Below, in pieces: positions 42,475 through 64,000 of a stretch of 64,000 nt of DNA; the stretch's first letter is position 1; each line of letters starts with the position of its first letter. Source of the DNA: Hoeflea sp. YIM 152468 (GTDB lineage: Bacteria > Pseudomonadota > Alphaproteobacteria > Rhizobiales > Rhizobiaceae); the NCBI RefSeq assembly GCF_029210485.1, contig NZ_JARGET010000028.1, positions 1 through 64,000 on the forward strand. Direction: 5' to 3'. The translations under genes and the position numbers were made by a program. The notes under the pieces are model-generated. The model made no database searches and was not told the origin of the DNA. It was given only the letters and a program-made list of their open reading frames with translations.

Positions 42475-42884
42475 GGGGTTTCCTGTTTCTGCAGTGATCG
42501 GGTGCATGGGCATGATTGACCGATCTGGCGACCTGGTTCAACACCCGCGCCGGCCGCCGCGGAGACCGGTGTCACACCAGCAGCTATAATAACGGGTTCT
42601 GCATGTCGAGCCTATCGGGCACTGGGGCTGCAAATCAGAGGCGTCGCGCAATTGAGATACCAGGGTCATCCCGACATCCTCGCTGTCCGAGCTTGACGTC
42701 ACCGCCGGTTAAGACCCGGGCGGTTGCGTGGATCTGCCGTGCTTGCCGTGCCGCACCCCGCCGTCATTGGCATCGACAACTGGTAAAAATTGTGGTCCCG
42801 TTCCGGAAACGCCGCCCGGCTCTTGCGAGGTGGCGATGGAATGCAGACCGGCGATGATGTGTCCGCCGGCAAGGGGAGGGAACC
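42475..42884. other. Divergent intergenic region, no gene recognised
   Basis: 410 bases between the rhodanese gene and the BASS transporter gene. A 113-codon frame on the plus strand (42516-42857) is Arg-rich, lacks a ribosome site and does not look like a protein. The region ends with AAGGGGAGGGAACC, the ribosome site of the transporter gene. No operator was identified. Confidence 0.45.
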
Positions 42885-43766
42885 ATGGGAACAATTGTCG
42901 GGGTGGTGCTGCCGCTGGGACTGGCCTTCATCATGTTGTCGCTGGGGCTGGGGCTGACGGTTGCGGATTTTGCGCGGGTGGCAAAGCAACCGTTTGCGTT
43001 TGTCATCGGCGCAGTCAACCAGGTGGTGATTTTGCCGGTTGTCACCTTCGCGCTGGTGCTGGCATTCGGACTTGGGCCCGAACTGGCAATCGGGTTCATG
43101 ATCCTGGCGTTTTGTCCGGGCGGGGTCACCAGCAACATCCTGACCCGGCTGGCGCGGGGCGACGTGGCGCTTTCGGTCTCGCTGACCGCCGTCATCAGTC
43201 TCGCCAGCATGATCACCGTGCCGCCGTTGCTGGCGCTGGCGATCCGTCATTTCAGCGGTGCGGAAGCGCCCCCGGTCAATATCAGCGGCATCGCGGTGCA
43301 ACTGTTCTTGTTGACGACCGTGCCGATTCTACTCGGATTGACGCTTCGCCATCTGGCGCCAGCCTTCACAGACCGGATTGCGCCCGTGGTGGCGCAGGTG
43401 GCCAACGGGTTGTTCGTGTTCATCGTCGTGCTGGCGCTGGTGGCGAACTGGGATGTCTTTGTTGCCAATCTTCCGGTGCTGGCACCCTCGCTGGTGAGCC
43501 TGATCCTCCTGTTGCTGGCGATCGGATATGGCGTGGCGCGGCTGGCCGCTGTGCCGATGGCACAGGTGAAGACGATTGCGATCGAAACCGGGATACAAAA
43601 CTCGACGCTCGGGATCACGGTTGCCGCCATGCTGAGCGGATACGAGGCCGGCTTTTCCGCCTACGCGCTGCCGGCGGCGGTCTACGGTATCTTGATGTAT
43701 GTGGTCTCGGCGCCGCTGATCCTGTGGCTTCGCAGGGTCGATGCTCCGCAGATCGCAACGGTTTAG
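42885..43766 (+). CDS. BASS-family (bile acid:sodium symporter) transporter
   Basis: 293-residue inner-membrane protein with nine to ten hydrophobic segments, the usual size of the bacterial BASS/SBF family. Typical parts are AFCPGGVTSNILTRLARGD (the first crossover motif) and ETGIQNSTLGITVA (the second). Members carry bile acids, pyruvate, pantoate or other organic anions with Na+. GGGGAGGGAACC precedes ATG 42885. It is followed by a KstD-like FAD dehydrogenase gene after 11 bases, hinting that it imports that enzyme's substrate. Confidence 0.87.
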   Translation: MGTIVGVVLPLGLAFIMLSLGLGLTVADFARVAKQPFAFVIGAVNQVVILPVVTFALVLAFGLGPELAIGFMILAFCPGGVTSNILTRLARGDVALSVSLTAVISLASMITVPPLLALAIRHFSGAEAPPVNISGIAVQLFLLTTVPILLGLTLRHLAPAFTDRIAPVVAQVANGLFVFIVVLALVANWDVFVANLPVLAPSLVSLILLLLAIGYGVARLAAVPMAQVKTIAIETGIQNSTLGITVAAMLSGYEAGFSAYALPAAVYGILMYVVSAPLILWLRRVDAPQIATV

Positions 43767-43777
43767 GAGAGCACGGA

Positions 43778-48864: not shown

Positions 48865-49775
48865 TCGCGAAGTCCGCTTGTCTTGTGCAAGAACCAGTCG
48901 ACAATGAAGTTCACTGCGACGGTCAGCAAGGCAATGGCAGCAGCCGGCAGCAAGGGCGTGATCGCGGCTGTCATGTCGTATTTGGCGAACTGGATCAGCG
49001 AGGCATTGGCCCGCACCATCGACCCCCAGTCAGCGGTTGGCGGCTGAATGCCGACGCCCAGGAAAGACAGCGCCGCGATGGTGAGAAACACAAAGCAGAA
49101 CCGGAGCCCGAATTCGGCCACCAGCGGCGGCATGATATTGGGCAGGATCTCCCGCCGCATGATCCAGCCGAGACCCTCGCCGCGCAATTTTGCCGCCTCG
49201 ACATAGTCCATCACGGCCACATTGACCGCGACTGCGCGGGTGAGGCGGAACACCCGGGTGGAATCGAGCACCGCAATGATGATGATCAGGCTGGTGATGG
49301 TCGATCCGAAAATCGACAGCAGCATCAGCGCAAAGATCAGGCTTGGAATCGCCATCAAAACATCGACAAACCGGCTCAGCGCCTGGTCAAGCCAGCGGCG
49401 GTTGATCGCCGCCACCAGGCCCAGCCCACCGCCGATGAGAAACGACAGAATCGTCGTCGCGAGTGCAATGCCCATGGTGTTGCGGGCGCCGTAGATCAGC
49501 CGGGTGAGCACGTCTCGGCCGATCTGGTCGGTGCCGAAGAAGAACTCATCGCCCCATGGCGCGAAGGCAGCAGCATGAATTTCGGCCTCGCCATAAGGAG
49601 CAAGGAGATCTGCGAAGATGGCCACACAGATATAGAAAAAGACGACAATCATGCCAAACCAGGCGGTCGCCGGGGCTGATTTGAGCAACAGGCCGATCCG
49701 CTCGAGGCGGCTTCGGCGTTTGCGAACTGCGCCGACTTCTGCGGACGCTGAATAGGTGACGGGTTGCTCGCTCAT
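48861..49775 (-). CDS. Dpp/Opp-type ABC transporter permease (DppC-like)
   Basis: 304-residue membrane protein with six hydrophobic spans and the periplasmic loop typical of DppC after the first span. GTDQIGRDVLTRLIYGARN near residue 100 is a strong DppC signature. The EAAKLRGEGLGWIMRREILPN coupling loop lies around residue 205. The start overlaps the DppB-like stop (ATGA), and its own stop overlaps the ATPase start. Inner-membrane half of the importer. Confidence 0.88.
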   Translation of the reverse strand: MSEQPVTYSASAEVGAVRKRRSRLERIGLLLKSAPATAWFGMIVVFFYICVAIFADLLAPYGEAEIHAAAFAPWGDEFFFGTDQIGRDVLTRLIYGARNTMGIALATTILSFLIGGGLGLVAAINRRWLDQALSRFVDVLMAIPSLIFALMLLSIFGSTITSLIIIIAVLDSTRVFRLTRAVAVNVAVMDYVEAAKLRGEGLGWIMRREILPNIMPPLVAEFGLRFCFVFLTIAALSFLGVGIQPPTADWGSMVRANASLIQFAKYDMTAAITPLLPAAAIALLTVAVNFIVDWFLHKTSGLRE

Positions 49776-50752
49776 CTGGGGTGCAGCAATCGCGGGTTGG
49801 TGACAATGCCGATGATATCGGCGGTCAGGTTTAAAAGGATGTAGGTCGCGGCGAAAATCAGCGCGCAGGCCTGAACGACGGGGATGTCCCGGCTGGTCAC
49901 GGCGTCAACCATCAACTGCCCGATTCCAGGATAGACAAACACCACTTCAACCACGACCACGCCCACAACCAGATAGGCCAGATTAAAGGCGATGACTGTG
50001 GCAATAGGCGCCCAGGCATTGGGAAGGGCGTGCTTGAGAATGATCTGGGAGCGCGACGCGCCCTTGAGCCGCGCCATCTCGATGTAGGGGCTGGCAAGAA
50101 GGTTGATGATGGCGGCGCGGGTCATGCGCATCATGTGCGCGACAATCACCAGGGTCAGGGTCAGCGAAGGCAGCGCCACCCGGTAAAGCCGTTCGCCAAG
50201 AGCGGTGGAGGCGTCGATATTGGCGAGTGAAGGAAACACCGGCCACAGCGAGGCCAGGAACAGGATCAGTATGTAGGCGACGAAAAACTCCGGCGTCGAA
50301 ATTGTCGTGAGCGTCGTCGCATTGACAATCCGGTCATAGGCGGTGTTGCGGTAGAGCGCGGCAGTCAGCCCCAGAAACAGCGCCAGCGGTACGGCGATAA
50401 CGGCAGTCACACCTGCGAGAAACAGGGTATTCCAGAGTCGGGGCATGACAAGGTCGCTGACCTGGCGGGAGCGGTCCTGGCCCGACGCATTGCGGCCTGA
50501 GAAGGATGTTCCGAGATCACCCTGAAGGACGGAGCCGACCCATTCGAAATAGCGCACTGGCGCGGGCTTATCGAGACCCAGTTCCTTGCGGAAGGCGGTG
50601 ACGGTTTCCTTGGTTGCGGCCTGCCCGAGAACCGTTTCACCGAAGTCTCCAGGCAGCATTGAAATGGAACTGAAGATAATGGCTGAAACGATAAAAAGTG
50701 TGGCTACGCCCATCCCCAAGCGTTTCAATATGGTCGACAGTACGGCATTCAA
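49772..50752 (-). CDS. Dpp/Opp-type ABC transporter permease (DppB-like)
   Basis: 326-residue membrane protein with six spans and the family coupling segment EMARLKGASRSQIILKHALPN around residue 235. The N-terminal LPGDFGETVLGQAATKETV matches DppB. The start is a TTG at 50752, with GGGGAGGAA seven bases upstream; the nearest in-frame ATG (50713) would cut into the first span. First gene of the leftward transporter operon. Confidence 0.86.
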   Translation of the reverse strand: MNAVLSTILKRLGMGVATLFIVSAIIFSSISMLPGDFGETVLGQAATKETVTAFRKELGLDKPAPVRYFEWVGSVLQGDLGTSFSGRNASGQDRSRQVSDLVMPRLWNTLFLAGVTAVIAVPLALFLGLTAALYRNTAYDRIVNATTLTTISTPEFFVAYILILFLASLWPVFPSLANIDASTALGERLYRVALPSLTLTLVIVAHMMRMTRAAIINLLASPYIEMARLKGASRSQIILKHALPNAWAPIATVIAFNLAYLVVGVVVVEVVFVYPGIGQLMVDAVTSRDIPVVQACALIFAATYILLNLTADIIGIVTNPRLLHPR

Positions 50753-51145
50753 ATGCGCGTTCCTCCCCGTTGTTTGCTGGCCTTGTAGCCATCCTCCAAG
50801 CCCGTTGATCGATGCCCATCTGTGGCCTGGTACTGGTCAGCATTGTTGTCCAGTAGCGGGGTGCTTGTAAACCGGCGGGCCGAATAAACTGGAGACCGCG
50901 GGTGGGGCAAGGCATTGTTTGTGCGCAGGGTTTATTTTGTTTCAGATTTGCGTTGGCGTGACAAATCGCTGTAGTTTGGCCGGGCGCAATTGGGCAAAAT
51001 CCGCATAAAGCGTGCCGGATCACTGGGTTTTGGCCCATGGTGGTGGCAAACGCTGTCAGGAGAATCGGGTGGGCCCAGCCTTGCATATCGTCGCGGATTA
51101 CGTGGCCTGACACTCAAAAGAATGCGGGAACAGATGGAGAATAGC
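50753..51145. other. Divergent promoter region of the peptide-type ABC system
   Basis: 393 bases between the leftward permease operon and the rightward binding-protein gene; it must hold promoters for both. An A/T-rich stretch around 50929-50946 could be a promoter. The binding-protein frame stays open to 50990, but the Tat leader starts near 51146. No dyad strong enough to call an operator was found and there is no adjacent regulator gene. Confidence 0.45.
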
Positions 51146-52753
51146 ATGAGAGACACCTACTTGAAAAAACAGGCGCGCTGGCTCAGCGAAGGTCAGATCG
51201 ACCGCAGGCAGTTCATCAAGACAGCCATCGCGGCAGGTCTGGCCGTGCCGTCGGCGCTGACGCTGGCAACGGATGTGCTGGCTGCAACGCCCAAGAAAGG
51301 TGGCAAGCTGCGCTATGGCTCGTCCTACGGCTCGACCACGGATGCGCTGGACCCGGGGACGGCTGAAAACGGAATGTCGCAGGCCATCAATTACGCCCGC
51401 GGCAATCATCTCACCGAAATCGGCAATGACGGCAAGCTGATCCCTGAACTTGCCCAAGCGCTTGAGCCGTCAAACGGTGCAAAAACCTGGGTGTTTGATC
51501 TGCGCAAGGGCGTGGAATTCCATAACGGCAAAAGCCTGACGGCCGACGACGTGATCGCGACGTTCAACTATCACCGTGACGAGAATTCCAAATCCGCTGC
51601 CAAGGGCCTTCTCGGCTCGATCAAGGAAATCAAGAAGGACGGCGACAGCCGCGTCATCTTCGAACTCGAAAGTGGCGATGCCGACTTCCCCTACATTGCC
51701 TCCGATTATCACATCATGATCCTGCCCTCGGTCGATGGCGTGATCGAAGATGCCAACAGCGCGGTCGGCACCGGCGGCTATATCATCGAGAGCTATGAGG
51801 CTGGTGTGCGCACTCTGATGAAGCGCAACCCGAACTACTTCAAGGAAGGCCGTGCGCATTTCGACGAAGTGGAGTTGATCACGCTCGCCGACACGACCGC
51901 GCGTCAGAATGCCATCATGAACGGTGATGTTGATCTTATCGACAATGTTGATCCCAAAACCGTGGCGCTGCTTGGCCGGGTCCCGACGCTTGAAATCCTC
52001 AAGACGACCGGCACCCAGCATTACACATTCCCGATGCGGGTCAATTCGGCTCCGTTCGACAATTACGACCTGCGCATGGCGCTCAAATTTGCCATCAAAC
52101 GTCAGGAACTGGTGGACAAGATCCTTCTCGGTCATGGTGAAGCGGGCAATGACGTGCCGATCAATGCGTCGATGCCGTACTTCAATACCGAATTGCCAGT
52201 GCATGAATTCGATGCCGAAAAGGCTGCCGAACACTACAAGAAGTCCGGCCATTCGGGTGCTATCCAGCTCTCTGTCTCTGACGCTGCCTTCCCCGGCGCC
52301 GTCGATGCGGCTCAGTTGATCGCGGCATCTGCCAAGGAGGCCGGAATCGAGATCGAACTGGTGCGCGAACCCAGTGATGGTTACTGGTCCAACGTGTGGA
52401 ACAAGAAGCCCTGGTGCGCCTGTTACTGGAACGGTCGTCCGACCCAGGACTGGATGTACAAATCTGCTTATACCAATGACACCGAGTGGAACGACACCGC
52501 CTGGAAAACCGGTGAATCCGCCGACAGGTTCAACGAGCTGGTTGTCATGGCGCGGTCGGAAACCGACGACGACAAGCGCAAGGACCAGTACTGGGAAGCG
52601 CAGAAGCTGCTGCAGGATGATGGCGGCGTCATCGTCGGCATGTGGGCATCATTTATTCATGCTCATTCCAAGGAACTGACCCATGATGAAAATGTTGCAG
52701 CCAACCTGCAGGCCGATGGCGCCAAGTTCGCCGAGCGCTGGTGGTTCGCCTGA
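51146..52753 (+). CDS. Extracellular solute-binding protein family 5 (peptide/nickel-type ABC system)
   Basis: 535-residue exported binding protein. A Tat-like leader contains DRRQFIKTAIAAG at about residues 18-30. The body shows the family-5 opening KGGKLRYGSSYGSTTDALDP and the HNGKSLTADDVIATFNYHRD motif. It binds a peptide-like or other small ligand and hands it to the divergently encoded permeases. ATG 51146 has GGAG six bases upstream; in-frame ATGs at 51122 and 51134 add a few residues. A strong terminator follows the gene. Confidence 0.88.
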   Translation: MRDTYLKKQARWLSEGQIDRRQFIKTAIAAGLAVPSALTLATDVLAATPKKGGKLRYGSSYGSTTDALDPGTAENGMSQAINYARGNHLTEIGNDGKLIPELAQALEPSNGAKTWVFDLRKGVEFHNGKSLTADDVIATFNYHRDENSKSAAKGLLGSIKEIKKDGDSRVIFELESGDADFPYIASDYHIMILPSVDGVIEDANSAVGTGGYIIESYEAGVRTLMKRNPNYFKEGRAHFDEVELITLADTTARQNAIMNGDVDLIDNVDPKTVALLGRVPTLEILKTTGTQHYTFPMRVNSAPFDNYDLRMALKFAIKRQELVDKILLGHGEAGNDVPINASMPYFNTELPVHEFDAEKAAEHYKKSGHSGAIQLSVSDAAFPGAVDAAQLIAASAKEAGIEIELVREPSDGYWSNVWNKKPWCACYWNGRPTQDWMYKSAYTNDTEWNDTAWKTGESADRFNELVVMARSETDDDKRKDQYWEAQKLLQDDGGVIVGMWASFIHAHSKELTHDENVAANLQADGAKFAERWWFA

Positions 52754-53654: not shown

Positions 53655-55232
53655 TCAGTTCTGGCGTGCGGTTGCGGGCTTTTCGGCAAAGGAACGGACG
53701 GTCTTGAGGGCGCCTTCAAGCTGCTCGCCCTTCTCGTCGGCCAGGGCTGCTTCACGCAACAGGCGGCACCAGTGGGCAGCATCATCGCGGCCGGCCAGCA
53801 GGGCCACGCCCTGCATGACGCGGTCGAATTTCGACAGACCCCGGGCATGGGTGTCGGAGTAGCCCTTGACCAGGCGGCGGTTGCGCAGGGTTTCAACGCC
53901 CAGTGCGTAGTCAATCCTGCTGTAGCTCAGCGCCAGTTCGAGCCAGGTTTCCAGATGGTCTGTTTCAATCGCATGGCGCAGGGTGCCGCGGCGGTATTTG
54001 CGCAGGCCGCCGAGAACGTAGAGCTGGGCAAATGGCAACAGCCTGTCGGTGCGCAGCCTGCGTCCGCGGTTGACCACCTTGTCGATCAGCCGCATCGTGC
54101 GTGCGCTTCCGGACAGACGCCGGCCGAGGCCGGCGGGCATCATGCCGACAATTTCTTCGGCGCGGGGATGCATGAACTCGGTGAGTTTCATCTGCGCGCC
54201 TTTTGCCGGAGCGATCTCGGCGCGGACCCGGGCGAAGCGGCTGCCGCGGGTTTTCAGATCTGCCACCCGGAAGACATCGTCATAGGCCATCGCCTTGGCG
54301 ATGTATTTTGCCGCCTCGAGTGTCAGTTCATGCCCCTTGGCCGCATCATCGCAGGACAACACGGTGTCGAGGCGACCGAGATAGTCTTCGCCATAATCAA
54401 GATCCTGAAAGTCGACGACTGCGCGCAGGCCGGTCAGCACCATGTCGCGGACCGGGGCAGGGAAGGCCGCTGCCCGTGCTTCAAGTGCGGCCCATTTTTC
54501 GATGAGGGTTTTCGGTCCCGCCGGCGTGTCGCCGGTACTGCTGCTGCTTTTTTGCTGTGCCTCGACCTTGCCGCCGGCGGCGGCTTCAAAACCCGCCGCA
54601 AAAGCGCGCAGGCTGGCCTCGACGCCACGGCCCGACGCCTTGATCGCGGCTTCAAAACTCTCCCGCGCGAAGGGCAGCGCCCCCGAACCGGCCAGAGCGC
54701 CAAACAGGCTCGCGGAAATCATTGACCCGACGTCGACAGCCATTTTCTCCATGTCGAAGGCAATGAACCGCTGCGCCGCGATTTCAGCGGCGGCGATCAC
54801 CTCGTCGGAATCGGCGATACCGTCTCCGGGCACGGTCTTCTCCGAAACGGCGAGCGCCCGGTGCGAGGAGGCAATCAGGGTGGTGCGGTCAGGGGTGACG
54901 AAGCCGCGCATGATGGCGCGTCCAGCCTCCATCATCTCGGCGGCCACCAGGATATCGACATCGCCAGCGGCGGGCATCAGCGAGAACACCGGCTGGCGTT
55001 CTCCGGCCGGTGCCATTTCCATGTAATAGATGGTCGCGCCTGTGCGTTGGGCGACACCAGCCACCGACGTGGCCTGGACGACATAGCCATTGCGATGGGC
55101 GCAATCCTCGATCCAGTTGGTCAGCACGCCACCGCCCTGGCCACCAACTGCCATGATCGCCAGCTTGATGATCTGATCGAGCGCCGGATCATTCGGCTGT
55201 GCTTTGAGCGCACTGTGGGTGTTGTTTGGCAT
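53655..55232 (-). CDS. iorB: Indolepyruvate oxidoreductase subunit beta (IorB-like)
   Basis: 525-residue protein. The N-terminal ~200 residues are a gamma/beta pyruvate-ferredoxin-oxidoreductase domain opening with MAVGGQGGGVLTNWIED and SVAGVAQRTGATIYYME, the IorB signature. The long extra C-terminal part (DUF6537-like in related proteins) is typical of the alphaproteobacterial long form. With IorA it oxidatively decarboxylates aryl-pyruvates to aryl-acetyl-CoA. It begins three bases after the iorA stop and is the last gene of the operon. Confidence 0.86.
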   Translation of the reverse strand: MPNNTHSALKAQPNDPALDQIIKLAIMAVGGQGGGVLTNWIEDCAHRNGYVVQATSVAGVAQRTGATIYYMEMAPAGERQPVFSLMPAAGDVDILVAAEMMEAGRAIMRGFVTPDRTTLIASSHRALAVSEKTVPGDGIADSDEVIAAAEIAAQRFIAFDMEKMAVDVGSMISASLFGALAGSGALPFARESFEAAIKASGRGVEASLRAFAAGFEAAAGGKVEAQQKSSSSTGDTPAGPKTLIEKWAALEARAAAFPAPVRDMVLTGLRAVVDFQDLDYGEDYLGRLDTVLSCDDAAKGHELTLEAAKYIAKAMAYDDVFRVADLKTRGSRFARVRAEIAPAKGAQMKLTEFMHPRAEEIVGMMPAGLGRRLSGSARTMRLIDKVVNRGRRLRTDRLLPFAQLYVLGGLRKYRRGTLRHAIETDHLETWLELALSYSRIDYALGVETLRNRRLVKGYSDTHARGLSKFDRVMQGVALLAGRDDAAHWCRLLREAALADEKGEQLEGALKTVRSFAEKPATARQN

Positions 55233-55235
55233 GGG

Positions 55236-57383
55236 TCAGGTCCGGACGAATTCGATACGGCCGCGCGAGCGGTGATGTTGCAGCCAGGTGATGATCCGGC
55301 TGGTGAAAGCGCCGAGGCTGCGTTCGAACCAGTTCGGGTTGAACACCACATCAGCGCGGTAGAAAGAGGGGCAAAGTACAGCGGCATCGGCGACTTCGCC
55401 GCAATTGCCGCAGCCGACGCAGCTCTGGTCGATGCTGGCGACAGGATCGTCGCGCAGGGGATCGTCGAGACGCTTGAGCGAGAGTGACGGGCAGCCCGAC
55501 AGCCGGATGCAGGCATGGTCGCCGGTGCAGACATCCTCATCGATGCCGAATCTTGGCTTCTCGACCCGGCGGCCTTCCTTGATCGCCTTGCTGGCCAGGG
55601 GCTTTTCGCGCCGCTGCTTGTTGAGCATGCACTCCGAGGAGGCGACGATGACCTTGGGGCCGACATGGTCGGTGGTCAGCGCCTCGTTGAGGATCTGGCG
55701 CATCTTCGGCACGTCATAGGTGCGGTCGATCTGGCGCACCCATTTGACGCCGACGCCCTTCAGCGCATCGGCAATCGGTTGACCGGTGGTTTTGGTGGGG
55801 TTGGTCGCGCGTGAAGACAGAATGTCCTGTCCGCCGGTCGCCGCCGAATAGAAGTTGTCGACAATGACGATCACGCCATCGGACTGGTTGTAGACGGCGT
55901 TGCCGATGGAGGAGGACAGACCGTTGTGCCAGAAACCGCCATCGCCGAGAATGGAGATCGAGCGCTTGTCGCCACCGCCGTCAAAGGCGGCATTGGAGGC
56001 GGGGCCGAGGCCATAGCCCATGGTCGATCCGCCGATTTCGAAAGGCGGCAGGGTGGCAAACAGATGGCAGCCGATATCGGCCGCGATCTGGTGCTTGCCG
56101 TGCTCCATTTCGGTCAGTTTGATGGCAGCGAAGATCGGCCGTTCGGGGCAGCCGGTGCAGAAGCCCGGCGGGCGCATCGGGACGGTCTTGGACAGATCGG
56201 GCAGCGCCGGTTTCTGGTCGGAGTTGGGCGCGCGCAGCCGGGCGGGCAGCATTTCCGGCGCGGCTTTCCTGATGAATGCCTCGAGGCCGTCGAGCATCAC
56301 CTGGCCGGTGTACTCGCCGGCCATGGGCAGCATGTCCTTGCCATGCAGCTTGACGGAGCTGCCTGCCTTGTACAAGGCCGACCCAAGTGCCTGTTCGATG
56401 AATTCCGGCTGGCCTTCCTCGACCACCAGGACTGCGGATTTGCCTTGGCAGAACTCGGAGAATTCGTCAGGAACCAGCGGATAGGTGACATTGAGGACAT
56501 AGAGCGGAATTTCGGTCTCGCCGTGAATGTCGGCCAGGCCGAGGCGTTGCAATGCCCGGATCACACCATTGTACATGCCGCCCTGAAGGACGATGCCGAT
56601 GGGAGCCTGTTTCGGCCCGAACATCTCGTTGAGGCCATTGTCGCGTATGTGTTTGAGCGCCGCCGGCCAGCGGTTGTCGATCTTGTCGTGCTCCTGCAGG
56701 TAGGACATCGGCGGCAGCACGACGCGGGCGTAATCGCTGCGCGGATTGGCCAGCGCGTCCTTGACGGTAAAGGGCGGGCGCTTGTTGTCCTTGGCCTGAA
56801 AGCTGCCGGTGACGTGGCAGGAGCGGATCCGCACCATCAGCATGACCGGCGTGTTGGTGGCTTCCGAGAGCTCGAAACCCTGATGCACGGACTGAACGAT
56901 GGAGGGCAGGTTGGGCCGCGGATCGAGCAGCCACATCTGTGATTTCATGGCGAAGGCATGGCTGCGCTCCTGCATGATCGAGGAGCCTTCGCCGTAGTCC
57001 TCGCCAATGATGACCAGCGCGCCGCCGGTGACACCAGCGGAGGAGAGGTTGGCGAGCGCATCCGATGCCACATTGACGCCGACCGGGCCTTTGAAGGTGA
57101 CGGCGCCGCGGATCGGATAGTGCACCGAGGCCGCAAGCATGGCGGCTGCTGCGGCCTCAGAGGCATTGGCCTCATAGCGCACGCCAAGTTCGGTGAGGAT
57201 TTCCTCGGCGTCTGCGAGCACGTCCATCAAGTGACTGATCGGCGCACCCTGATAGCCGCCGACGTAACCGACGCCTGCTTCCAGCAGCGCCTTTGTCAGC
57301 GCCAGAATACCCTCGCCCGAGAAGGTTTCGCCTTCACCGATCTTGAGTTTCTGGACTTCCTTGGCGAAAGAACGTTCAGCCAT
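55236..57383 (-). CDS. iorA: Indolepyruvate oxidoreductase subunit alpha (IorA-like)
   Basis: 715-residue thiamine-diphosphate enzyme. Pyrimidine-binding domain at about residues 15-190 (GYVGGYQGAPISHLMDVL). The TPP-binding motif GDGGFWHNGL lies near 478, followed by VIVDNFYSAATGGQ. A C-terminal ferredoxin domain holds two Cys clusters, CTGDHACIRLSGC near 618 and CVGCGNC near 655, for [4Fe-4S] centres. It makes aryl-acetyl-CoA from indolepyruvate or phenylpyruvate-type 2-oxoacids. GGAGG precedes ATG 57383, 34 bases after the VOC gene. Confidence 0.88.
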   Translation of the reverse strand: MAERSFAKEVQKLKIGEGETFSGEGILALTKALLEAGVGYVGGYQGAPISHLMDVLADAEEILTELGVRYEANASEAAAAAMLAASVHYPIRGAVTFKGPVGVNVASDALANLSSAGVTGGALVIIGEDYGEGSSIMQERSHAFAMKSQMWLLDPRPNLPSIVQSVHQGFELSEATNTPVMLMVRIRSCHVTGSFQAKDNKRPPFTVKDALANPRSDYARVVLPPMSYLQEHDKIDNRWPAALKHIRDNGLNEMFGPKQAPIGIVLQGGMYNGVIRALQRLGLADIHGETEIPLYVLNVTYPLVPDEFSEFCQGKSAVLVVEEGQPEFIEQALGSALYKAGSSVKLHGKDMLPMAGEYTGQVMLDGLEAFIRKAAPEMLPARLRAPNSDQKPALPDLSKTVPMRPPGFCTGCPERPIFAAIKLTEMEHGKHQIAADIGCHLFATLPPFEIGGSTMGYGLGPASNAAFDGGGDKRSISILGDGGFWHNGLSSSIGNAVYNQSDGVIVIVDNFYSAATGGQDILSSRATNPTKTTGQPIADALKGVGVKWVRQIDRTYDVPKMRQILNEALTTDHVGPKVIVASSECMLNKQRREKPLASKAIKEGRRVEKPRFGIDEDVCTGDHACIRLSGCPSLSLKRLDDPLRDDPVASIDQSCVGCGNCGEVADAAVLCPSFYRADVVFNPNWFERSLGAFTSRIITWLQHHRSRGRIEFVRT

Positions 57384-57417
57384 CGTCTACCTCCAACTGC
57401 GTGTCTGCCGGCCTGGG

Positions 57418-58014
57418 TTAATCGGCAGGTTCGGTGTTGGACCAGAGCGCTGGTCCACCGTCTTGTTCGTAAGCCATGCCCTTGGGAAAGGAGATTGCCT
57501 CCAGCTGAAGGCCCCATGGGGCGAAGAAATAGAGGATCGACTGTCCGGCGGCAGGGCCTTCAGTGACCGGAAAAGGCCCCATCAGCGTGCGGATGCCCTG
57601 TTCCTTGAAATAGGCCGCTGCGGCGTCAATGTCATCGACGTAAAAGGCAAGGTGGTGCCCGCCGATATCGCTGTTGCGCGGCCGGACCGTCTGCTGGTCC
57701 GGCGCATCATAGGAAAACAGCTCGATATTGCTGCCAAAACCGCAGCGCATCAGCGTGATCTGGTTGACCACCGCACGCGGGTCGACATCGAGCAGATCCT
57801 GCATGAAGGTGCCGCTGTCATCCCGGAAAGGACCGAATGAGGTCGCTTTCTCGCAGCCGAGCACGTCGGTGAAAAAACTCTCTGCCTCGTCGATGTCTGG
57901 AACGGTGAGACCAATGTGGTTGATGCCGCGCACACCAGGCAGGGTTTCAGCCCCCGCGCCCGAGATCCCCATACTCACGGCGAATGCGGCGACAGCCAGA
58001 ATGCTATGCTTCAT
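57418..58014 (-). CDS. Exported VOC/glyoxalase-fold protein
   Basis: 198 residues with a leader at about 1-22 (ends SGAGAE), which is unusual because VOC enzymes are normally cytoplasmic. The mature part has the paired beta-alpha-beta modules and likely metal ligands: His33 in INHIGLTV, Glu in NIELFSY, His in GGHHLAFYVDD and Glu in LQLEAISF. That fits a metal-dependent dioxygenase, lyase or isomerase. GGGAGA precedes ATG 58014. Encoded between marR and iorA in one operon. Substrate unknown. Confidence 0.75.
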   Translation of the reverse strand: MKHSILAVAAFAVSMGISGAGAETLPGVRGINHIGLTVPDIDEAESFFTDVLGCEKATSFGPFRDDSGTFMQDLLDVDPRAVVNQITLMRCGFGSNIELFSYDAPDQQTVRPRNSDIGGHHLAFYVDDIDAAAAYFKEQGIRTLMGPFPVTEGPAAGQSILYFFAPWGLQLEAISFPKGMAYEQDGGPALWSNTEPAD

Positions 58015-58066
58015 TGGTTTTCTCCCGGGTTGCGTCGATCTGGTTCAAAAAACTGGCTTCAGGCGG

Positions 58067-58558
58067 TCAAAAATCGTGTTTCCTGACATTGTTGAGCATC
58101 TTCTGCAGGGTGGTGACAAAGGCCTGGCGCTCTTCAGCCGGAATGTCCTTGAACATCTGTTCGTAGACCCGAACCATTGAAGGCCAGAGCTGATCGAGGG
58201 CTGCGCGGCCTGCTTCGGTTATGCTGATGCGGGTGACCCGGCTGTCGGTGGGATCGGGGTCGCGCCGGACCAGACCGTCCGAGGCCAGTTGCTCGAGCGA
58301 ACGGCTGAGTGTTGATTGTTCGACCACTGCGTAAACGGCGAGCTCGGTGATCGGCAGGGCATCGATGACCGAGAGCACCGCCAGCGCCCGCATTTTCGGT
58401 GTGGTCAAGCCCAGACCGGTCATTTCCTGCCGCAGATCGGCGTTGTAGCGACCCATGATCCGGTTCATCAGGTAAGGCGCAAAATTGGACAGGCCGATTT
58501 CGCCCAGCCGCGGTATCGGTTCTGATTTTTCGGAAACTGCAGATTTGATGTCGTTCAT
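58067..58558 (-). CDS. MarR-family transcriptional regulator
   Basis: 163-residue winged-helix regulator. The DNA-binding part has ITELAVYAVVEQSTLSRSLEQ and LVRRDPDPTDSRVTRISIT (the wing with its conserved Asp-x-Arg). Such proteins usually repress a divergent operon until an aromatic ligand binds. The start overlaps the FAD oxidoreductase stop (ATGA). The pseudo-palindrome at 61042-61062 in front of the operon is a suitable operator. Confidence 0.85.
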   Translation of the reverse strand: MNDIKSAVSEKSEPIPRLGEIGLSNFAPYLMNRIMGRYNADLRQEMTGLGLTTPKMRALAVLSVIDALPITELAVYAVVEQSTLSRSLEQLASDGLVRRDPDPTDSRVTRISITEAGRAALDQLWPSMVRVYEQMFKDIPAEERQAFVTTLQKMLNNVRKHDF

Positions 58559-60132
58559 CCAGCCAACCTCTTTGCCAACAGAAAGCCCGAACCGCCACCA
58601 AGACCTGGCCCCGGGTGGGTCGAGGCGCCGATATGATGCAGGTTTGAAATCGCGGTTGCGTTGTTCCTGGTGTGGGCGAAGGGACGCCAGATGAAGAACT
58701 GGTCGAGCGCGCAGGAGCCGCCATAGGGGTCGCCACCGACCAGATTGATGTTCATGGTTTCAAGATCCACCGGCGAATAGGCCTTTCGCGCCAGAATGCT
58801 GTCGGCGAAGCCGTCAATATGAGCGGCCAGGATCGCTTCGATGCGGTCGGCAAAGGCCTCGCGGGTGGCCTCATTCCAGACGCCGTCGGTCTCAACTTCG
58901 CCTGCCGCATCGCCCTTGATGGTGCGTGGTGCATCGGGGATCTGCAGCCAGAGAATGGACTTGCCTTCGGGGCAGCGGGACGGATCGAGGCGGTGCGGCT
59001 GGCCGACGCAGACGGTCGGCGTCACCGGCAGCAGGCCGCGCTCGGCTTCATTGGACGACTTGGAGACGGAATCGATGCCATCGGCGAGGTGGATGAGCGC
59101 GACGTCCTCCAATCCATCTGTTTTCCAGCGGATCGGCCCATCGAGAGCGTAATGGAGCTGAAAATTGCCGCGGCCGTGGCGGAACTGGCTCAGCCCGGTT
59201 GCCTCACCCTCTGAAACGGCTTTGGTGTCGTCGCGGAGCAGCCGGTTGTAAAGCTGACCCGGCGCGACGGAACAAATGACATGGGATGCGGTGAGTTCAA
59301 TTCCGTCTGCCAGCCGGACCCCGACGGCCTTGCCGTTGCGCACACGAATCTGGTCGACATCGGCATCGGCCCGCAGTTCGCCGCCGTTTGCCTCAATCAG
59401 GCTTTTGAAGGCAGCGACTGCCTGACTGGCGCCGCCCTTGACCACCGGCGCACCGGCGGCTTCCAGCGCAAAGGCGATAACCTTGCCCATCTGGCCGCCA
59501 TAGGCGGATTCGGGCGTCAGGCCGGTGTGCAGTGCCCACGGCGCCCACAAGGCCTGAACCAGTTCGGAGGCGTAGGTGGCTTCGAGCCAGGCGCGGGTCG
59601 GGCGCAGGGCCTGGCCCATCCAGGCCGCGAGCCCACGGGGTCCGCGTTTCCACGCCTGCCTGGCCAGCAGCCTGGCGGTCGGCCAGCTCCACAATTCGCC
59701 GCCCAGCAGCGTGAACAAGAACGGCGCGTCAGCCTCGATGGCCCCGACGTCGGCACCGTGCCGGTCGCCATCACCGGGCACAAGGGTATTGAATGTCTCG
59801 ATGTTGGCGGCCCGGTCCGTACTGAGCACCAGTGACGAGCCGTCGGGCCGCAAGACGCCGGTCGGATGCGGCGTGTGACAGAACTCAAGCCCATGCCGGG
59901 CCAGGTCGGACCCGAGTGCGGCATGGGCGGGAGAGGTGAGGAACAGAACGAAAGTTGCCGCCATCACGTCATGGTGGAAGCCGGGCAGAGTGACGTCCTC
60001 GGTGCGCATGCAGCCGCCGAATCGGCTCTCGCGCTCGAGAACCAGGACACGCTTGCCCTTTGAGGACAGCATGGCTGCAGCAACGAGCGAATTGATGCCG
60101 CTGCCGACAATGATGTGGTCATAGTCTGCCAT
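58555..60132 (-). CDS. NAD(P)/FAD-dependent oxidoreductase (phytoene-desaturase/PYROXD2-like), copy A
   Basis: 525-residue flavoprotein. N-terminal FAD motif IIVGSGINSLVAAAML at residues 7-22 with ERESRFGGCMR after it. The C-terminal GGGSGFLLAKRL closes the FAD site. It belongs to the CrtI-like/PYROXD2 amine-oxidase superfamily branch; most members have no assigned substrate. A homologue is divergently encoded at 61080. ATG 60132 is used; the frame runs on into the cyclase gene but the fold starts here. Second gene of the six-gene operon, 26 bases after the cyclase. Confidence 0.83.
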   Translation of the reverse strand: MADYDHIIVGSGINSLVAAAMLSSKGKRVLVLERESRFGGCMRTEDVTLPGFHHDVMAATFVLFLTSPAHAALGSDLARHGLEFCHTPHPTGVLRPDGSSLVLSTDRAANIETFNTLVPGDGDRHGADVGAIEADAPFLFTLLGGELWSWPTARLLARQAWKRGPRGLAAWMGQALRPTRAWLEATYASELVQALWAPWALHTGLTPESAYGGQMGKVIAFALEAAGAPVVKGGASQAVAAFKSLIEANGGELRADADVDQIRVRNGKAVGVRLADGIELTASHVICSVAPGQLYNRLLRDDTKAVSEGEATGLSQFRHGRGNFQLHYALDGPIRWKTDGLEDVALIHLADGIDSVSKSSNEAERGLLPVTPTVCVGQPHRLDPSRCPEGKSILWLQIPDAPRTIKGDAAGEVETDGVWNEATREAFADRIEAILAAHIDGFADSILARKAYSPVDLETMNINLVGGDPYGGSCALDQFFIWRPFAHTRNNATAISNLHHIGASTHPGPGLGGGSGFLLAKRLAG

Positions 60133-60158
60133 TGCCCTGGTCCCCGGCGCGGTGTGTC

Positions 60159-60950
60159 TTAACCGCGTGCGACCAGTGCCATGGCGCGGATCGGGCTTCC
60201 CGTGCCCTTGACGATCTTCAGCGGCGCAGCGATCAGGATTGCGCCCTTGGGCGGCAGCTTGTCGAGATTGGCCAGCGAAGCAAGACCGTATTTGTTGGCC
60301 GCGTGCAGCAGATTGTGGGCCGGGTAGGGCGGCTCCATTCCGCCGGCCTGCCCGGCGTCGGTGCCGATGCATTGATTGCCCCAGCCAATCACGCCCTTGG
60401 ACAGAATGTACTCAATGCAATCGACCGTCGGGCCAGGCGAGTGCGGGCCGGTTTCATCAGCATTGAGATAGGCCGCTTCATCACCGGCACGGGAGTCCCA
60501 GTCGGAGCGCATCACCACCCATTCGCCGGCCTTGATCTCGCCATGCTTGGCTTCCCAGGCTTTGACGCCAGCAGCATCGAGCAGGAAATCAGGATTCTTT
60601 GCCACGTCAGCGGAGCAGTCGATCACATTGACCGGTGCCACGAAATTCTGCGGCGGAATGGAATCGGTGTAGCCATCAACATAGTCCTTGCCGGTGATCC
60701 AGTGATGCGGCGCATCGAAATGGGTGCCGGAGTGCTCGCCGAGCTTGAGCCAGTTCCAGGCAAAGAAAGGCCCGTCACTGTCATATTCGGAAATCTTGTG
60801 AATTTCGATTTTCGGCGTGTTCTTGGCGAAGTCTTCCGGCAGTTGCAGAAGCGGTGTGTCGGGACCGAGCGGGCCGGAGAGATCGACCACCTCCACTTTT
60901 CCCTCAATCAACAGTCCGGCGAGATTACCAAGTGTTTCCGTGGCGTTCAT
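60159..60950 (-). CDS. Cyclase-family metal-dependent hydrolase (isatin hydrolase / kynurenine formamidase-like)
   Basis: 263-residue PF04199 protein. The metal-binding signature H-x-GTH-x-D-x-PxH is complete: His73-Ser-Gly-Thr-His77-Phe-Asp79-Ala-Pro-His82. Family members open cyclic or formyl amides such as isatin or N-formylkynurenine, using Mn or Zn. The gene has a strong ribosome site (GAGGAGGATC) and is the first of the leftward operon that ends in iorAB, which suggests an indole or tryptophan-derived substrate; that is inference. Confidence 0.82.
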   Translation of the reverse strand: MNATETLGNLAGLLIEGKVEVVDLSGPLGPDTPLLQLPEDFAKNTPKIEIHKISEYDSDGPFFAWNWLKLGEHSGTHFDAPHHWITGKDYVDGYTDSIPPQNFVAPVNVIDCSADVAKNPDFLLDAAGVKAWEAKHGEIKAGEWVVMRSDWDSRAGDEAAYLNADETGPHSPGPTVDCIEYILSKGVIGWGNQCIGTDAGQAGGMEPPYPAHNLLHAANKYGLASLANLDKLPPKGAILIAAPLKIVKGTGSPIRAMALVARG

Positions 60951-61041
60951 GAATGATCCTCCTCAGGCAGGCGTACAAGTGTCTGAAAACTGCATCCCGG
61001 ATGGCGGGTTGTGTGTCTGCACCAAATTGATGCTAGACAAA

Positions 61042-61062
61042 ATAATATGCATTTGCAATTAT
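61042..61062. promoter_or_regulatory. Candidate MarR operator in the divergent region
   Basis: ATAAT-A-TGCA, two bases TT, TGCA-ATTAT: an almost perfect dyad with one unpaired A, in the 129-base gap between the two divergent FAD/cyclase transcription units and 17 bases before the second oxidoreductase. Size, A/T content and place fit a MarR site controlling both directions. Confidence 0.5.
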
Positions 61063-61079
61063 AAATCTCGACCGGGGGG

Positions 61080-62660
61080 ATGGCTTTGTCGCACAGATAT
61101 GACGCCATTATTGTAGGGGCTGGACTAAACAGCCTGGCGTGTGCGGTGCACCTGTGCGCGAAGGGCTGGCGGGTTGGTGTTTTCGAACAGGCCGCAACGG
61201 CAGGTGGTGCGGTCAAGACCGCGGAGCTGACCGCGCCGGGGTTCCGTCATGACTGGGCGGCGATGAATCTCAGCCTCTTTGCCGGCTCGGCATTTTTCAA
61301 GTTATATGGTGATGACCTGGTGACCCGCGGGCTTGAGTTCGCACCGGTATCGCATTGTTTTGCCAGTGTTTTTGATGATGGCAGGTGGATGGGCGTGAGC
61401 ACCGGTCCAGGCGAGACGCGGGCCCGGATCGCGGCTTTTTCGGACGCCGATGCGCGGGCCTGGGACCGGCTGAACGCGGATTTTCCCGGCACTGCGGAAT
61501 ATGTCTTTGCTCTGCTGGGGAATTCCATGCAAATGCATGTACAAGGCAGGTTGCTGGCAAAGGCCTTGTTGCGCAAAGGTTTTTCATGGACGGCGGATCT
61601 GGTTCGGCTGCTGGTGTCGTCGCCGCGCAAATGGCTGAGCGAGACCTTCGAATCCGATCAAGTGCGCGCGACCATGGCAGCCTGGGGCATGCATCTTGAT
61701 TTCGCGCCTGACATGGCTGGCGGTGCGGTGTTTCCCTATCTTGAAGCGATGGCCAACCAGAATTTCGGCATGGTCATCGGCAAAGGCGGTGCCGACACGC
61801 TGACACGGGCGCTGGTGGCAAGAGTAGAGGCGACCGGTGGCGAGGTTCATTGCGGCAAGCGGGTGGCGCGTGTCCTGCGCGCTGGCGGCAAGGCGACCGG
61901 AATCGCGCTTGAAGACGGCTCCGAGATTACGGCGGGGCGGGCGGTGATCGCCAATGTCGCGCCGGGCGGACTGATGACGTTGCTCGACGGTCAATCCGGA
62001 GACGCCGTGTTTGACACCAAGATGGCCAGATTCACCCATGCGCCGGGCACCATGATGATCCATCTGGCGCTTGATGGGCTGCCCGACTGGACAGCCAGCG
62101 AAGAGCTGAAGAAATTTGCCTATGTCCATATCGCGCCGTCGCTCGATCAGATGGCGCGCACCTATCAGCAGGCGGTCGCAGGCCAGTTGCCCGATGAGCC
62201 GGTGCTGGTGGTCGGGCAGCCGACAGCGATCGATCCAAGCCGGGCGCCGAACGGCAAGCATGTGCTGTGGGTGCAGGTCCGCATGGTGCCGGGCGAGATC
62301 CGCGGCGATGCGGCCGGTATCATTACAGACACCGGCTGGCCCACGGTCAAAGAGATCTATGCGGACCGGGCGCTGGACATGATCGAACGGCATGCGCCGG
62401 GGCTGAAGGCGAAGATCATCGGCCGCACCGTGGTGTCGCCGCTTGACCTCGAAGCTGACAATCCGAACCTTGTCGGCGGCGACCAGATTGCCGGCAGTCA
62501 TCACCTTTCTCAGAATTTCCTGTTCCGTCCGGCCTTGGGCCACGCCACTGGAAAGACCCCCGTCGACCGATTGCATCTCACCGGCGCCAGTGTCTGGCCC
62601 GGTGCGGGCACAGGCGCGGGTGCAGGGTTTATGCTCGCTCAGAAACTGGGTGGGAAATGA
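61080..62660 (+). CDS. NAD(P)/FAD-dependent oxidoreductase (phytoene-desaturase/PYROXD2-like), copy B
   Basis: 526-residue flavoprotein paralogous to 58555-60132. FAD motif IIVGAGLNSLACAVHL at about residues 10-25 with EQAATAGGAV after it; the C-terminal end GAGAGFMLAQKLGG closes the site. The annotated ATG sits immediately behind GGGGGG with no spacer; the TTG at 61086 would have better spacing, so the true start may be two codons in. It diverges from the six-gene operon and is followed after 22 bases by an ABC binding-protein gene, presumably its operon partner. Confidence 0.82.
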   Translation: MALSHRYDAIIVGAGLNSLACAVHLCAKGWRVGVFEQAATAGGAVKTAELTAPGFRHDWAAMNLSLFAGSAFFKLYGDDLVTRGLEFAPVSHCFASVFDDGRWMGVSTGPGETRARIAAFSDADARAWDRLNADFPGTAEYVFALLGNSMQMHVQGRLLAKALLRKGFSWTADLVRLLVSSPRKWLSETFESDQVRATMAAWGMHLDFAPDMAGGAVFPYLEAMANQNFGMVIGKGGADTLTRALVARVEATGGEVHCGKRVARVLRAGGKATGIALEDGSEITAGRAVIANVAPGGLMTLLDGQSGDAVFDTKMARFTHAPGTMMIHLALDGLPDWTASEELKKFAYVHIAPSLDQMARTYQQAVAGQLPDEPVLVVGQPTAIDPSRAPNGKHVLWVQVRMVPGEIRGDAAGIITDTGWPTVKEIYADRALDMIERHAPGLKAKIIGRTVVSPLDLEADNPNLVGGDQIAGSHHLSQNFLFRPALGHATGKTPVDRLHLTGASVWPGAGTGAGAGFMLAQKLGGK

Positions 62661-62682
62661 AGCAAAAAACAGGGAGAACACC

Positions 62683-64000
62683 ATGACACAGATTTCACGC
62701 CGTACAGTGCTCAAGGGCTCGGTAGCGGCACTGGCCGTCAGCGCTTTTGCCGGACCGGCGCTTGCTCAAGGCATTGAAGAGCTCGTTATCGCCTACAACG
62801 TCAACCTGCCGTCCTGGGATCCGACCGTTGGGCCGTCCGCCGTCAATCCGACGATCCAGGGGATTTACCAGTCGGTGTTCGACCAGTTCATCCTGCAGCA
62901 GCCCGACCTGTCGCCGGCGCCCGGCCTGCTCACCGAATGGGGCTGGAACGACGACAAGACCAAGGTGACCATGACCGTGCGCGAAGGCGTGACCTGGCAT
63001 GACGGCTCGCCGTTTACCGCCGAGGACGTGGCCTGGTCGCTGCGCCGCGCTGCCGACGAGGCAACCGGCAATCCGATCCAGTTCATCTGGTCGACGCTGG
63101 CCAATATCCAGGCCGACGGCAACAGGGTGACCGCCGATGTCGCCCGGTTCGAGCCGACGATCTTCAAATGGATGTACTTCCTCACCGGTTATGTGCTGCC
63201 CAAGGCTTACTATGAGAAGGTCGGCGCGGACGGGTTCGAAGCAGCCCCGATCGGCACCGGTCCCTATATGGTCGACAAGTTCGAGCGCAATGCGTTCGTG
63301 CGGCTGAAGGCCAACCCGACCTATTGGGGCGGCAAGCCGGACTTTGATACCGTGACCATCAAATTCGTCACCGATGCCGCTTCGCGCGTCGCCGAGATTG
63401 AATCGGGCAATTCGCACGTCACACTGGAAATGCCTTATGAAGAGTATGACCGGCTCAAGAGCGGCAGCGGCCTTGCCGGCACCGACGCGCCGATTTCCGA
63501 TATCGGCATGATCTTCCTCAATGACATCGAAGCGATGCTGGATCCGAACGTGCGCATGGCCGCAGCCATGTCGATCGACAAGCAGTTGATCATCGACCGT
63601 CTGCTGTCGGGTTACGGCGTCGCCATCGACACGCTGCAAACTCCCGAATACGAAGCCTATGATGCCTCGATCAAGGTGCCTTATGATCCGGAAAAGGCCA
63701 AGGAACTGCTGGCTGCTTCCGGTTTCTCGCCGGAAAACCCGGTCAAGTTCAAGATCCAGACGACGCGCGGCTTCAAGCCGAAGGATTACGAAATGATCCA
63801 GGCGATTGTCGGTCTGTGGCGCAAGATCGGAATCGAGGCCGAGATCGAAGTCTACGAGATTGCCAAGCATTTCGAATTGCGCGCGGCCGATCAGCTGGCG
63901 CCAGCGGCGTTCTACAACTGGGGCAACTCGGTGGGCGACCCGTCAACCTCGACGGGGTTTGCCATGTTCGGCCCGTCGCCGCACTCGGTGTGGGACGGTC
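62683..64000 (+). CDS. ABC transporter substrate-binding protein family 5 (partial, runs off the window)
   Basis: The first 439 codons are present with no stop before the window ends. A Tat-type leader (SRRTVLKGSVAALAV, residues 5-19) ends at PALAQG. The body shows the family-5 pattern: VIAYNVNLPSWDPT, HDGSPFTAEDVAWSLRRA and APIGTGPYMVDKFE. It would bring a ligand to a peptide-type importer whose permease genes probably follow outside. AGGGAGA precedes ATG 62683. Its place behind the second FAD oxidoreductase suggests it imports the substrate of this catabolic locus. Confidence 0.88.
   Translation, partial: MTQISRRTVLKGSVAALAVSAFAGPALAQGIEELVIAYNVNLPSWDPTVGPSAVNPTIQGIYQSVFDQFILQQPDLSPAPGLLTEWGWNDDKTKVTMTVREGVTWHDGSPFTAEDVAWSLRRAADEATGNPIQFIWSTLANIQADGNRVTADVARFEPTIFKWMYFLTGYVLPKAYYEKVGADGFEAAPIGTGPYMVDKFERNAFVRLKANPTYWGGKPDFDTVTIKFVTDAASRVAEIESGNSHVTLEMPYEEYDRLKSGSGLAGTDAPISDIGMIFLNDIEAMLDPNVRMAAAMSIDKQLIIDRLLSGYGVAIDTLQTPEYEAYDASIKVPYDPEKAKELLAASGFSPENPVKFKIQTTRGFKPKDYEMIQAIVGLWRKIGIEAEIEVYEIAKHFELRAADQLAPAAFYNWGNSVGDPSTSTGFAMFGPSPHSVWDG

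Follow-up and report, generated by a model that had tools for sequence, protein, structure and literature searches.

Introduction

The described systems closest to the locus reported here are the iad auxin loci, the iif/ind indole clusters, isatin hydrolase B of Labrenzia aggregata (LaIHB) and the aerobic 2-aminobenzoyl-CoA pathway. The iad loci of Variovorax and Bradyrhizobium list IorAB and a second MarR regulator, IadR2, which does not bind indole-3-acetic acid (IAA) (PMC9613470). IadI, annotated as a kynurenine formamidase, acts after a compound C8H7NO2, and C8H7NO3, the formula of isatinic acid, builds up (PMC12633357). Both isatinic acid and anthranilate have been reported in indole and auxin breakdown, with no enzyme named in the available text for the step between them (PMC8383072, PMC6221969), and a 2018 review called it an open question whether isatin takes part (PMC6221969). 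A 2-aminobenzoyl-CoA monooxygenase/reductase has been described in Azoarcus evansii (PMC4539516). Here we analyze a locus of Hoeflea sp. YIM 152468 that starts at position 53,655 of a 64-kb stretch (positions 1 to 64,000 of contig NZ_JARGET010000028.1; hereafter the window), which is one part of a 117-kb contig. It combines a cyclase, a MarR-family regulator, the oxidoreductase subunits IorA and IorB, two flavoproteins (FAD1 and FAD2) and a Dpp-type importer.

We propose that this locus is an isatin-centred catabolic unit, in which the core chemistry is joined to FAD1 as the isatin former, and give this reading a probability of about 60%. The gene set is real and widespread, and it is probably co-regulated.

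Results

The cyclase is predicted to be an isatin hydrolase

A search of structure chains returned isatin hydrolase B (4j0n) as the best match of the cyclase (E 2e-141), with other isatin hydrolases ranking next, and 200 of 262 residues (76%) are identical to LaIHB. The signatures of LaIHB are the metal motif HxG[T/A]HxDxPxH, a pocket of Phe63, Trp65, Trp84 and Phe209, and a GLAS motif (PMC6117287). The window hydrolase retains F63, W65, W84, H73, H77, D79, H83, A224 and the GLAS motif, so that all but one of the named B-type residues are identical. The exception is Phe209Tyr; the LaIHA pocket has Tyr204 (PMC6117287). The protein scores 28.3 bits against the kynurenine formamidase KynB model (TIGR03035, cut-off 223) and is 96-97% identical to copies in three Hoeflea genomes. 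By homology we assign the cyclase as an isatin hydrolase of the B type, and this assignment alone is much firmer than the whole proposal.

Organization of the locus

The features of the locus are as follows.

53655-55232, minus strand: IorB-type subunit (POR domain plus DUF6537); NF006179, PF01558, PF20169
55236-57383, minus strand: IorA-type subunit with TPP domain; PF02775, below the cut-off of TIGR03336
57418-58014, minus strand: VOC/glyoxalase-fold protein with a signal-peptide-like start, accessory and sporadic; PF13669, PF00903
58067-58558, minus strand: MarR-family regulator, proposed pathway sensor; PF01047, closest solved chain 3cjn (E 6e-55)
58555-60132, minus strand: FAD1, CrtI/amine-oxidase-type flavoprotein, proposed isatin former; PF01593, model and tree
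60159-60950, minus strand: predicted isatin hydrolase, B type (PF04199); 4j0n
61030-61059, minus strand: conserved block ATTGCAAATGCATA...TAGCAT before the hydrolase, a proposed operator for MarR that would overlap a promoter; conservation and matrix scan
61080-62660, plus strand: FAD2, paralogue of FAD1 (37% identical), proposed preparer of the imported substrate; homology and model (pLDDT 86)
62683-64000 in the window, ending at 64215, plus strand: periplasmic binding protein of the Dpp-type importer; PF00496

The six leftward genes (cyclase, FAD1, MarR, VOC, iorA and iorB, in this order) are separated by gaps of -4 to 52 bases. These values had been given in an earlier interpretation of the DNA (the sequence-only reading) and were confirmed, as was its FAD oxidoreductase gene with a binding protein gene, running rightward and facing the leftward genes. 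The start of FAD1 at 60132 was picked by homology; its open reading frame (ORF) stays open to 60372. The predicted importer is real, but only its binding protein lies in the window: two permeases and two ATPases (DppBCDF-like; PF00528, PF00005) are encoded at 64227-67842 on the plus strand of the same contig. By homology labels, these are followed by a KynU-like pyridoxal phosphate (PLP) enzyme (67889-69055) and a 772-residue flavin monooxygenase/old-yellow-enzyme fusion (69201-71519), then by genes for a short-chain dehydrogenase/reductase (SDR), a MarR regulator, enoyl-CoA hydratase-type and acyl-CoA dehydrogenase-type enzymes and a CoA ligase, and after them by kynureninase and tryptophan 2,3-dioxygenase (TDO).

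The VOC protein had been described as exported. A signal-peptide-like start, judged by eye, agrees with this, but the gene does not belong to the invariant genes: only 7 of 126 tabulated loci have it (L010, L011, L012, L018, L024, L072 and L074), with contig ends truncating several loci. In M. loti a VOC gene stands after FAD2 and the importer too.

A second peptide-type importer was seen by eye directly left of iorB (window 47233-52753), with a double ATPase ORF, two permease ORFs and a divergent binding protein. At window positions 42728-45430 a mechanically called ORF of 900 amino acids crosses another reading frame of a membrane-protein-like gene before a FAD-binding dehydrogenase; the true start is probably at 43778.

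Co-occurrence of the genes

Co-occurrence was analyzed in 238 genomes of 237 genera, evenly drawn from one family (that of G154). This sample replaced a class-wide one of 289 genomes, which was too thin (hydrolase at E 1e-70 in 9 genomes and FAD1 in 3, our own genome included). The identity limits, at least 66% for a close hydrolase and at least 65% for IorA, were fixed after gaps had been seen in the match lists. Arrangements, not frequencies, are shown by 80 loci gathered by hydrolase match.

A hydrolase at E 1e-70 or better was present in 46 of the 238 genomes. The copy was close in 39 of them; in the other 7 the best copy was 47-51% identical, close to the 49% of the A type, and IorA was present in all 7. 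IorA was found in 48 genomes. It accompanied the hydrolase in 46 of 46 cases, and the hydrolase accompanied IorA in 46 of 48 (p 3e-47); seven genomes with a distant IorA only (52-56%) had no hydrolase. FAD1 was detected in 28 genomes and FAD2 in 27, all within the FAD1 set. All 28 carry IorA, without which neither flavoprotein was found, and 27 carry a close hydrolase. FAD1, FAD2, hydrolase and IorA lie within 15 kb of each other in 22 of the 28, more than chance would give, which excludes the possibility that these genes are rarely neighbours; in three of the remaining six genomes a contig end seems to interrupt the locus (G356, G390 and, on the basis of a partial match, G443). The sequence-only reading is supported in that the locus is catabolic and co-inherited, is meant for a compound of the indole type and includes an importer as well as a MarR regulator; isatin was among the options that this reading had named.

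Of the 12 close-hydrolase genomes without FAD1, 11 encode IorA at most 15 kb from a hydrolase copy. The importer binding protein (>60% identity) occurs in 50 of the 126 tabulated loci, and all 50 have FAD1 or FAD2. The core is the hydrolase with IorAB, usually accompanied by MarR, and FAD1/FAD2 with the importer are an added module. Other modules beside the same core are an iad operon (L006, L033), the KynU-like gene, and a StyAB-type monooxygenase with the FAD1/FAD2 pair (L007, L056, L084).

gamma-Glutamyltransferase genes were observed near the core in L004, L005, L040 and L023 and are not constant. In the annotated loci L004 and L005 they are accompanied by a DUF1028 gene and a further peptide-type importer; L004, L005 and L023 represent three genera. 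An actinobacterial assembly, Nocardioides marinus (contig JAHVJD010000008, L048), contains the complete cluster, with identities like those among alphaproteobacteria (hydrolase 74%, IorA 77%), which may reflect horizontal transfer or a mis-assigned contig.

IorAB and isatinate

IorB falls within its family NF006179 (674 bits, cut-off 348). IorA scores 272 bits against the classical alpha subunit model TIGR03336, below the cut-off of 651, and has C-terminal Cys clusters at positions 619-671, as read from the translation. Alpha-keto acids are the substrate class of the 2-oxoacid:ferredoxin oxidoreductase family. Because the product of isatin hydrolysis is an alpha-keto acid, isatinate is proposed as the substrate of IorAB. 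Chemistry of the kind proposed here is carried out by phenylglyoxylate oxidoreductase, an enzyme of different subunit make-up that converts phenylglyoxylate to benzoyl-CoA. The sequence-only reading had placed IorAB on an aryl-pyruvate. This is not favoured: the adjoining hydrolase would make an arylglyoxylate (isatinate), and the co-occurring downstream enzyme type uses a thioester of the benzoyl-CoA class.

That downstream enzyme is the fusion protein at 69201-71519, 8 kb off, which scores 1301 bits against NF006101 (cut-off 1078). A search of 80 genomes at E 1e-150 gave NF006101 matches in 35 of 39 close-hydrolase genomes, in all 9 that have IorA without a close hydrolase, and in 4 of 32 with neither (35/39 against 4/32, p 3e-11); 3 of the 48 matches are under the family cut-off, and the 32 genomes were chosen by hand, spread across the numbering of the other genomes in the sample of 238. 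In the beta-proteobacterium Caballeronia, IorA (62% identical to that of the window), IorB, an NF006101-type monooxygenase (56%) and a cyclase (47%) share one 13-kb stretch. The MarR of this cluster is only 25% identical to the window MarR, and its use as support for the regulator was therefore dropped; the cluster supports IorAB, the monooxygenase and the cyclase.

The two flavoproteins

The sequence-only reading had described twin FAD oxidoreductases. Both are present, but they are not a symmetrical pair: the 37% identical paralogues form separate clades in a tree, FAD1 is placed in the hydrolase operon, whereas FAD2 belongs to that of the importer, and Azospirillum has FAD1 but no FAD2 in its operon. 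From this placement FAD1 and FAD2 are predicted to have different jobs. Neither reaches the cut-off of the CrtI family TIGR02734 (238 bits), FAD1 scoring 102 and FAD2 139 bits. AlphaFold models of both (pLDDT 86) have a CrtI/amine-oxidase fold with 4rep and 4dgk nearest, then NicA2 and 3ka7 in varying order; such models give the broad fold only and do not fix reaction or substrate.

The operon of Azospirillum thermophilum runs SDR, styrene/indole monooxygenase (StyA), flavin reductase (StyB), transporter, FAD1, cyclase. Its FAD1-clade gene is 61% identical to window FAD1 and its cyclase 54% to that of the window, and neither FAD2 nor a Dpp importer is found there. As this order reads ring oxidation, FAD1, isatin hydrolysis, FAD1 most likely makes isatin. 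Judged from the gene order, FAD1 is probably the isatin-forming enzyme, with dioxindole, indoxyl and oxindole as candidate precursors.

On a plasmid of Sulfitobacter dubius FAD1 faces FAD2 and the importer is present, but the hydrolase gene does not lie between the two FAD genes; it is found 66 kb off on the plasmid. The genes around FAD2 relatives are mixed in Cedecea, Agrobacterium, a halophilic archaeon and Dietzia and point to no one substrate, and a Novosphingobium stretch came without annotation. An Agrobacterium tumefaciens plasmid (L149 5706-11443) carries a Rieske pair, an isochorismatase-like hydrolase, an SDR, a FAD1-like gene (44% identical to window FAD1) and a MarR gene, and is perhaps a related route with another hydrolase.

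The conserved block and MarR

The 129-base gap between FAD2 and the hydrolase holds ATTGCAAATGCATA, then TTGTCTAGCAT. Among 43 dereplicated FAD2/hydrolase gaps CATTTGCA is present in 30 and GCTAGACA in 29, and the best 8-mer after shuffling reached 3. An exact 12-mer of the block occurs once in the Hoeflea genome. The sequence-only reading had placed a dyad between the divergent operons. No dyad of score at least 6 with a loop of at most 8 was found in the gap, but neighbouring 6-base palindromes (ATGCAT, TTGCAA and TTATAA) are present inside the block conserved across other loci. The spacing of 17 bases from TTGCAA to TAGCAT is promoter-like by eye; a consensus scan gave other hexamers.

An operator matrix was trained on the FAD2/hydrolase gaps (34 of the 43), so only places without FAD genes count as a test. 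At such hydrolase places a block of at least 15 bits within 300 bases upstream was found in 20 of 25 with MarR and in 0 of 32 without (p 4e-11). Good sites were also detected before MarR-IorAB in L106 and L108, where no hydrolase accompanies them, and between FAD1 and FAD2 in L137, again with no hydrolase; on the Sulfitobacter plasmid the block lies between these two FAD genes. The conserved operator-like block tracks MarR, imperfectly. The solved structures nearest to the MarR protein are 3cjn, then 7kym.

The KynU-like gene

The KynU-like gene was found in 31 of the 238 genomes, 28 of which have a close hydrolase (p 3e-24). FAD1 or the KynU-like gene is present in 38 of the 39 close-hydrolase genomes; within those 39 the two show no significant association (p 0.12). 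Runs of KynU-like gene, hydrolase, IorA and IorB on the same strand occur in L100, L101 and L102. The protein is 28% identical to the kynureninase of the contig, with the PLP lysine and one arginine aligned, and we take this arginine to be the binder of the substrate carboxylate. On chemical grounds the enzyme may split dioxindolylalanine by retro-aldol cleavage into isatin and alanine; plain kynureninase activity is a simpler rival.

Discussion

Proposed pathway and alternatives

From gene content, homology, co-occurrence and conservation of the block we infer what kind of substrate the locus serves, how it is regulated and every reaction, isatin hydrolysis by way of relatives whose activity has been assayed, as follows. 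The Dpp-type importer would take up an oxidised indole or oxindole compound, which FAD2 and then FAD1 would oxidise, FAD1 yielding isatin, possibly from dioxindole. The Mn-type isatin hydrolase would open isatin to isatinate (2-aminophenylglyoxylate). IorAB would convert isatinate and CoA to 2-aminobenzoyl-CoA by oxidative decarboxylation, with no ATP spent, and the flavin monooxygenase/reductase and beta-oxidation-type enzymes of the same contig would dearomatise and then degrade this thioester. MarR would repress both divergent operons via the conserved block between them until released by a pathway intermediate.

Several observations weigh against this scheme. The block falls under 15 bits at 5 of the 25 FAD-less places with MarR and in 12 of 49 FAD loci, 8 of the 12 having MarR, and the MarR/block test is not independent because most places lacking MarR fall in one hydrolase clade. 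In three FAD1 genomes (G436, G502, G520) the parts are at separate places, and FAD1-type genes also occur in stretches without an annotated cyclase. Several genomes encode IorAB apart from every hydrolase, and six IorAB stretches (L106, L107, L109-L112) show no hydrolase within the bases covered. The KynU-like gene cannot be a general part, since it is missing from 10 of the 28 FAD1 genomes. The NCBIfam name of NF006101 is bifunctional salicylyl-CoA 5-hydroxylase/oxidoreductase, so that 2-aminobenzoyl-CoA is our own interpretation; we take this name and that of 2-aminobenzoyl-CoA monooxygenase/reductase to stand for one enzyme type. The CoA ligase of the same cluster could form 2-aminobenzoyl-CoA from anthranilate; it scores 359 bits against the benzoate-CoA ligase family, under the cut-off of 375. 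Finally, the Variovorax region iadC-K2, whose gene names do not include IadA/IadB, is reported to lead as far as anthranilate, so that another conversion of isatinate is available there; the available text has no match for iadA, iadB, iorA or iorB (PMC12633357).

It is rather unlikely that hydrolase and IorAB act in series as proposed while the FAD1/FAD2 route avoids free isatin, for example through an analogue substituted on the ring or on N. In favour, FAD2 and the importer are conserved and inherited together, as would suit a specific compound that does not cross the membrane unaided, but the isatin pocket residues are retained in the hydrolase and FAD1 stands beside StyAB without the Dpp importer in Azospirillum. 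An unlikely role, too, is that of a cyclase serving mainly as the missing N-formylkynurenine formamidase between the TDO and kynureninase of the contig, with IorAB unrelated or acting on indolepyruvate. KynA (422 bits, cut-off 391) and KynU (278 bits, cut-off 246) are indeed encoded about 16-18 kb right of the cyclase (L002 16794-18874), KynB has no match over the cut-off in the Hoeflea genome (one of 43 bits falls below it), and the KynU-like gene neighbours the hydrolase in many loci and lies near a TDO gene in Alloyangia. However, the cyclase is far closer to LaIHB than to KynB, as described above, TDO is not annotated in five annotated stretches that hold hydrolase and IorAB, and a kynurenine role leaves the link to IorAB and FAD1/FAD2 unexplained.

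We see little chance for the combined scheme of the sequence-only reading, with an aryl amino acid deaminated or desaturated by the FAD proteins and an arylpyruvate converted to arylacetyl-CoA by IorAB. The family name of IorAB and the amine and amino acid oxidases among the fold neighbours of FAD1/FAD2 would fit, but the isatin hydrolase, present in nearly all FAD1 genomes, is then left with no role, and in Azospirillum the FAD1 orthologue stands between styrene/indole monooxygenase and hydrolase. Very improbable is an iad locus for IAA degradation whose first genes were lost or displaced. The same hydrolase-MarR-IorAB set does adjoin iad operons, some complete and some covered in part (the Rhodobacterales loci L006 and L033, and L021), with the block before the hydrolase in L006. 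Yet the Rieske protein IadD of L006, which matches L033, L105 and L108 at 75-79% (tblastn), had no match in the Hoeflea genome at E 0.001, in a search without its own positive control; no tabulated locus has both FAD genes together with this Rieske gene, and the importer is of the Dpp type, not TRAP. A plain iad locus was rejected on the same empty search, no Rieske IadDE pair being found in the Hoeflea genome. In Agrobacterium a FAD1-like gene lies beside another Rieske pair.

We return to the isatin-centred unit. If it is correct, the locus provides candidate genes for isatin formation, for ring opening and for transfer of the product onto CoA, together with a regulator and its operator, and candidate enzymes for the step from isatinic acid that previously had no named enzyme. 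It would also explain the presence of IorAB in auxin loci and turn a vague question into a few enzyme assays. Tentatively, isatin could be a metabolic hub in many alphaproteobacteria, although we would not bet on it at even odds. The core (hydrolase, IorAB and usually MarR) would lead to 2-aminobenzoyl-CoA at no cost in ATP, by an isatinate:ferredoxin oxidoreductase activity not described before. It would be fed by interchangeable supply modules: FAD1/FAD2 with the Dpp importer, the iad auxin route, styrene/indole monooxygenase with FAD1, and a PLP enzyme resembling kynureninase, for which dioxindolylalanine, an oxidised tryptophan, may be the substrate to be split.

Comparison with known systems

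The sequence-only reading knew of no described pathway with this gene set. No description of it was found in the literature searched, mostly without subscription papers, so an earlier one is possible; however, IorAB and a second MarR are already known in iad loci (PMC9613470), and in a Rhodobacterales locus (L006) a complete iad operon has the hydrolase-MarR-IorAB set as its neighbour. In the same literature, PMC9613470 alone contains both 'isatin' and 'indolepyruvate ferredoxin oxidoreductase', and 'isatinase' appears nowhere.

With isatin hydrolase B of Labrenzia aggregata (PDB 4j0n/4m8d) the window protein shares 76% identity, the metal motif, the GLAS motif and the pocket aromatics, and differs from it in Tyr for Phe at residue 209; the likeness concerns the protein alone. 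The Azoarcus evansii aerobic 2-aminobenzoyl-CoA pathway has in common with the contig a monooxygenase/reductase-type enzyme, beta-oxidation-type genes and a CoA ligase. In Azoarcus an AMP-forming ligase produces the thioester, starting from anthranilate (PMC4539516), whereas here it is proposed to arise from isatinate with ferredoxin. The iif/ind indole cluster likewise oxidises the indole ring toward the anthranilate level, but IifA takes 3-hydroxyindolin-2-one directly to anthranilate (PMC6221969), in place of the predicted isatin hydrolase and IorAB.

The iad auxin loci share isatin-level intermediates and IorAB with a second MarR, and a hydrolase lies inside (A type) or beside them (B type, L006). 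The former arrangement was seen on a Roseibium aggregatum plasmid (L145 8992-9765), where an iad-type operon encodes isatin hydrolase A itself as its cyclase (5nnb, E 1.9e-174). This supports reading that operon position as isatin hydrolase and suggests that the 'kynurenine formamidases' of the IadI type are isatin hydrolases. Unlike the iad loci, the window locus has no adjoining Rieske IadCDE and no acyl-CoA ligase/thiolase/SDR set, and has FAD1/FAD2 with the Dpp importer instead. Overall, judged from sequence, the locus would be a variant of known isatin, auxin and indole catabolism, with a specific assignment for the orphan step.

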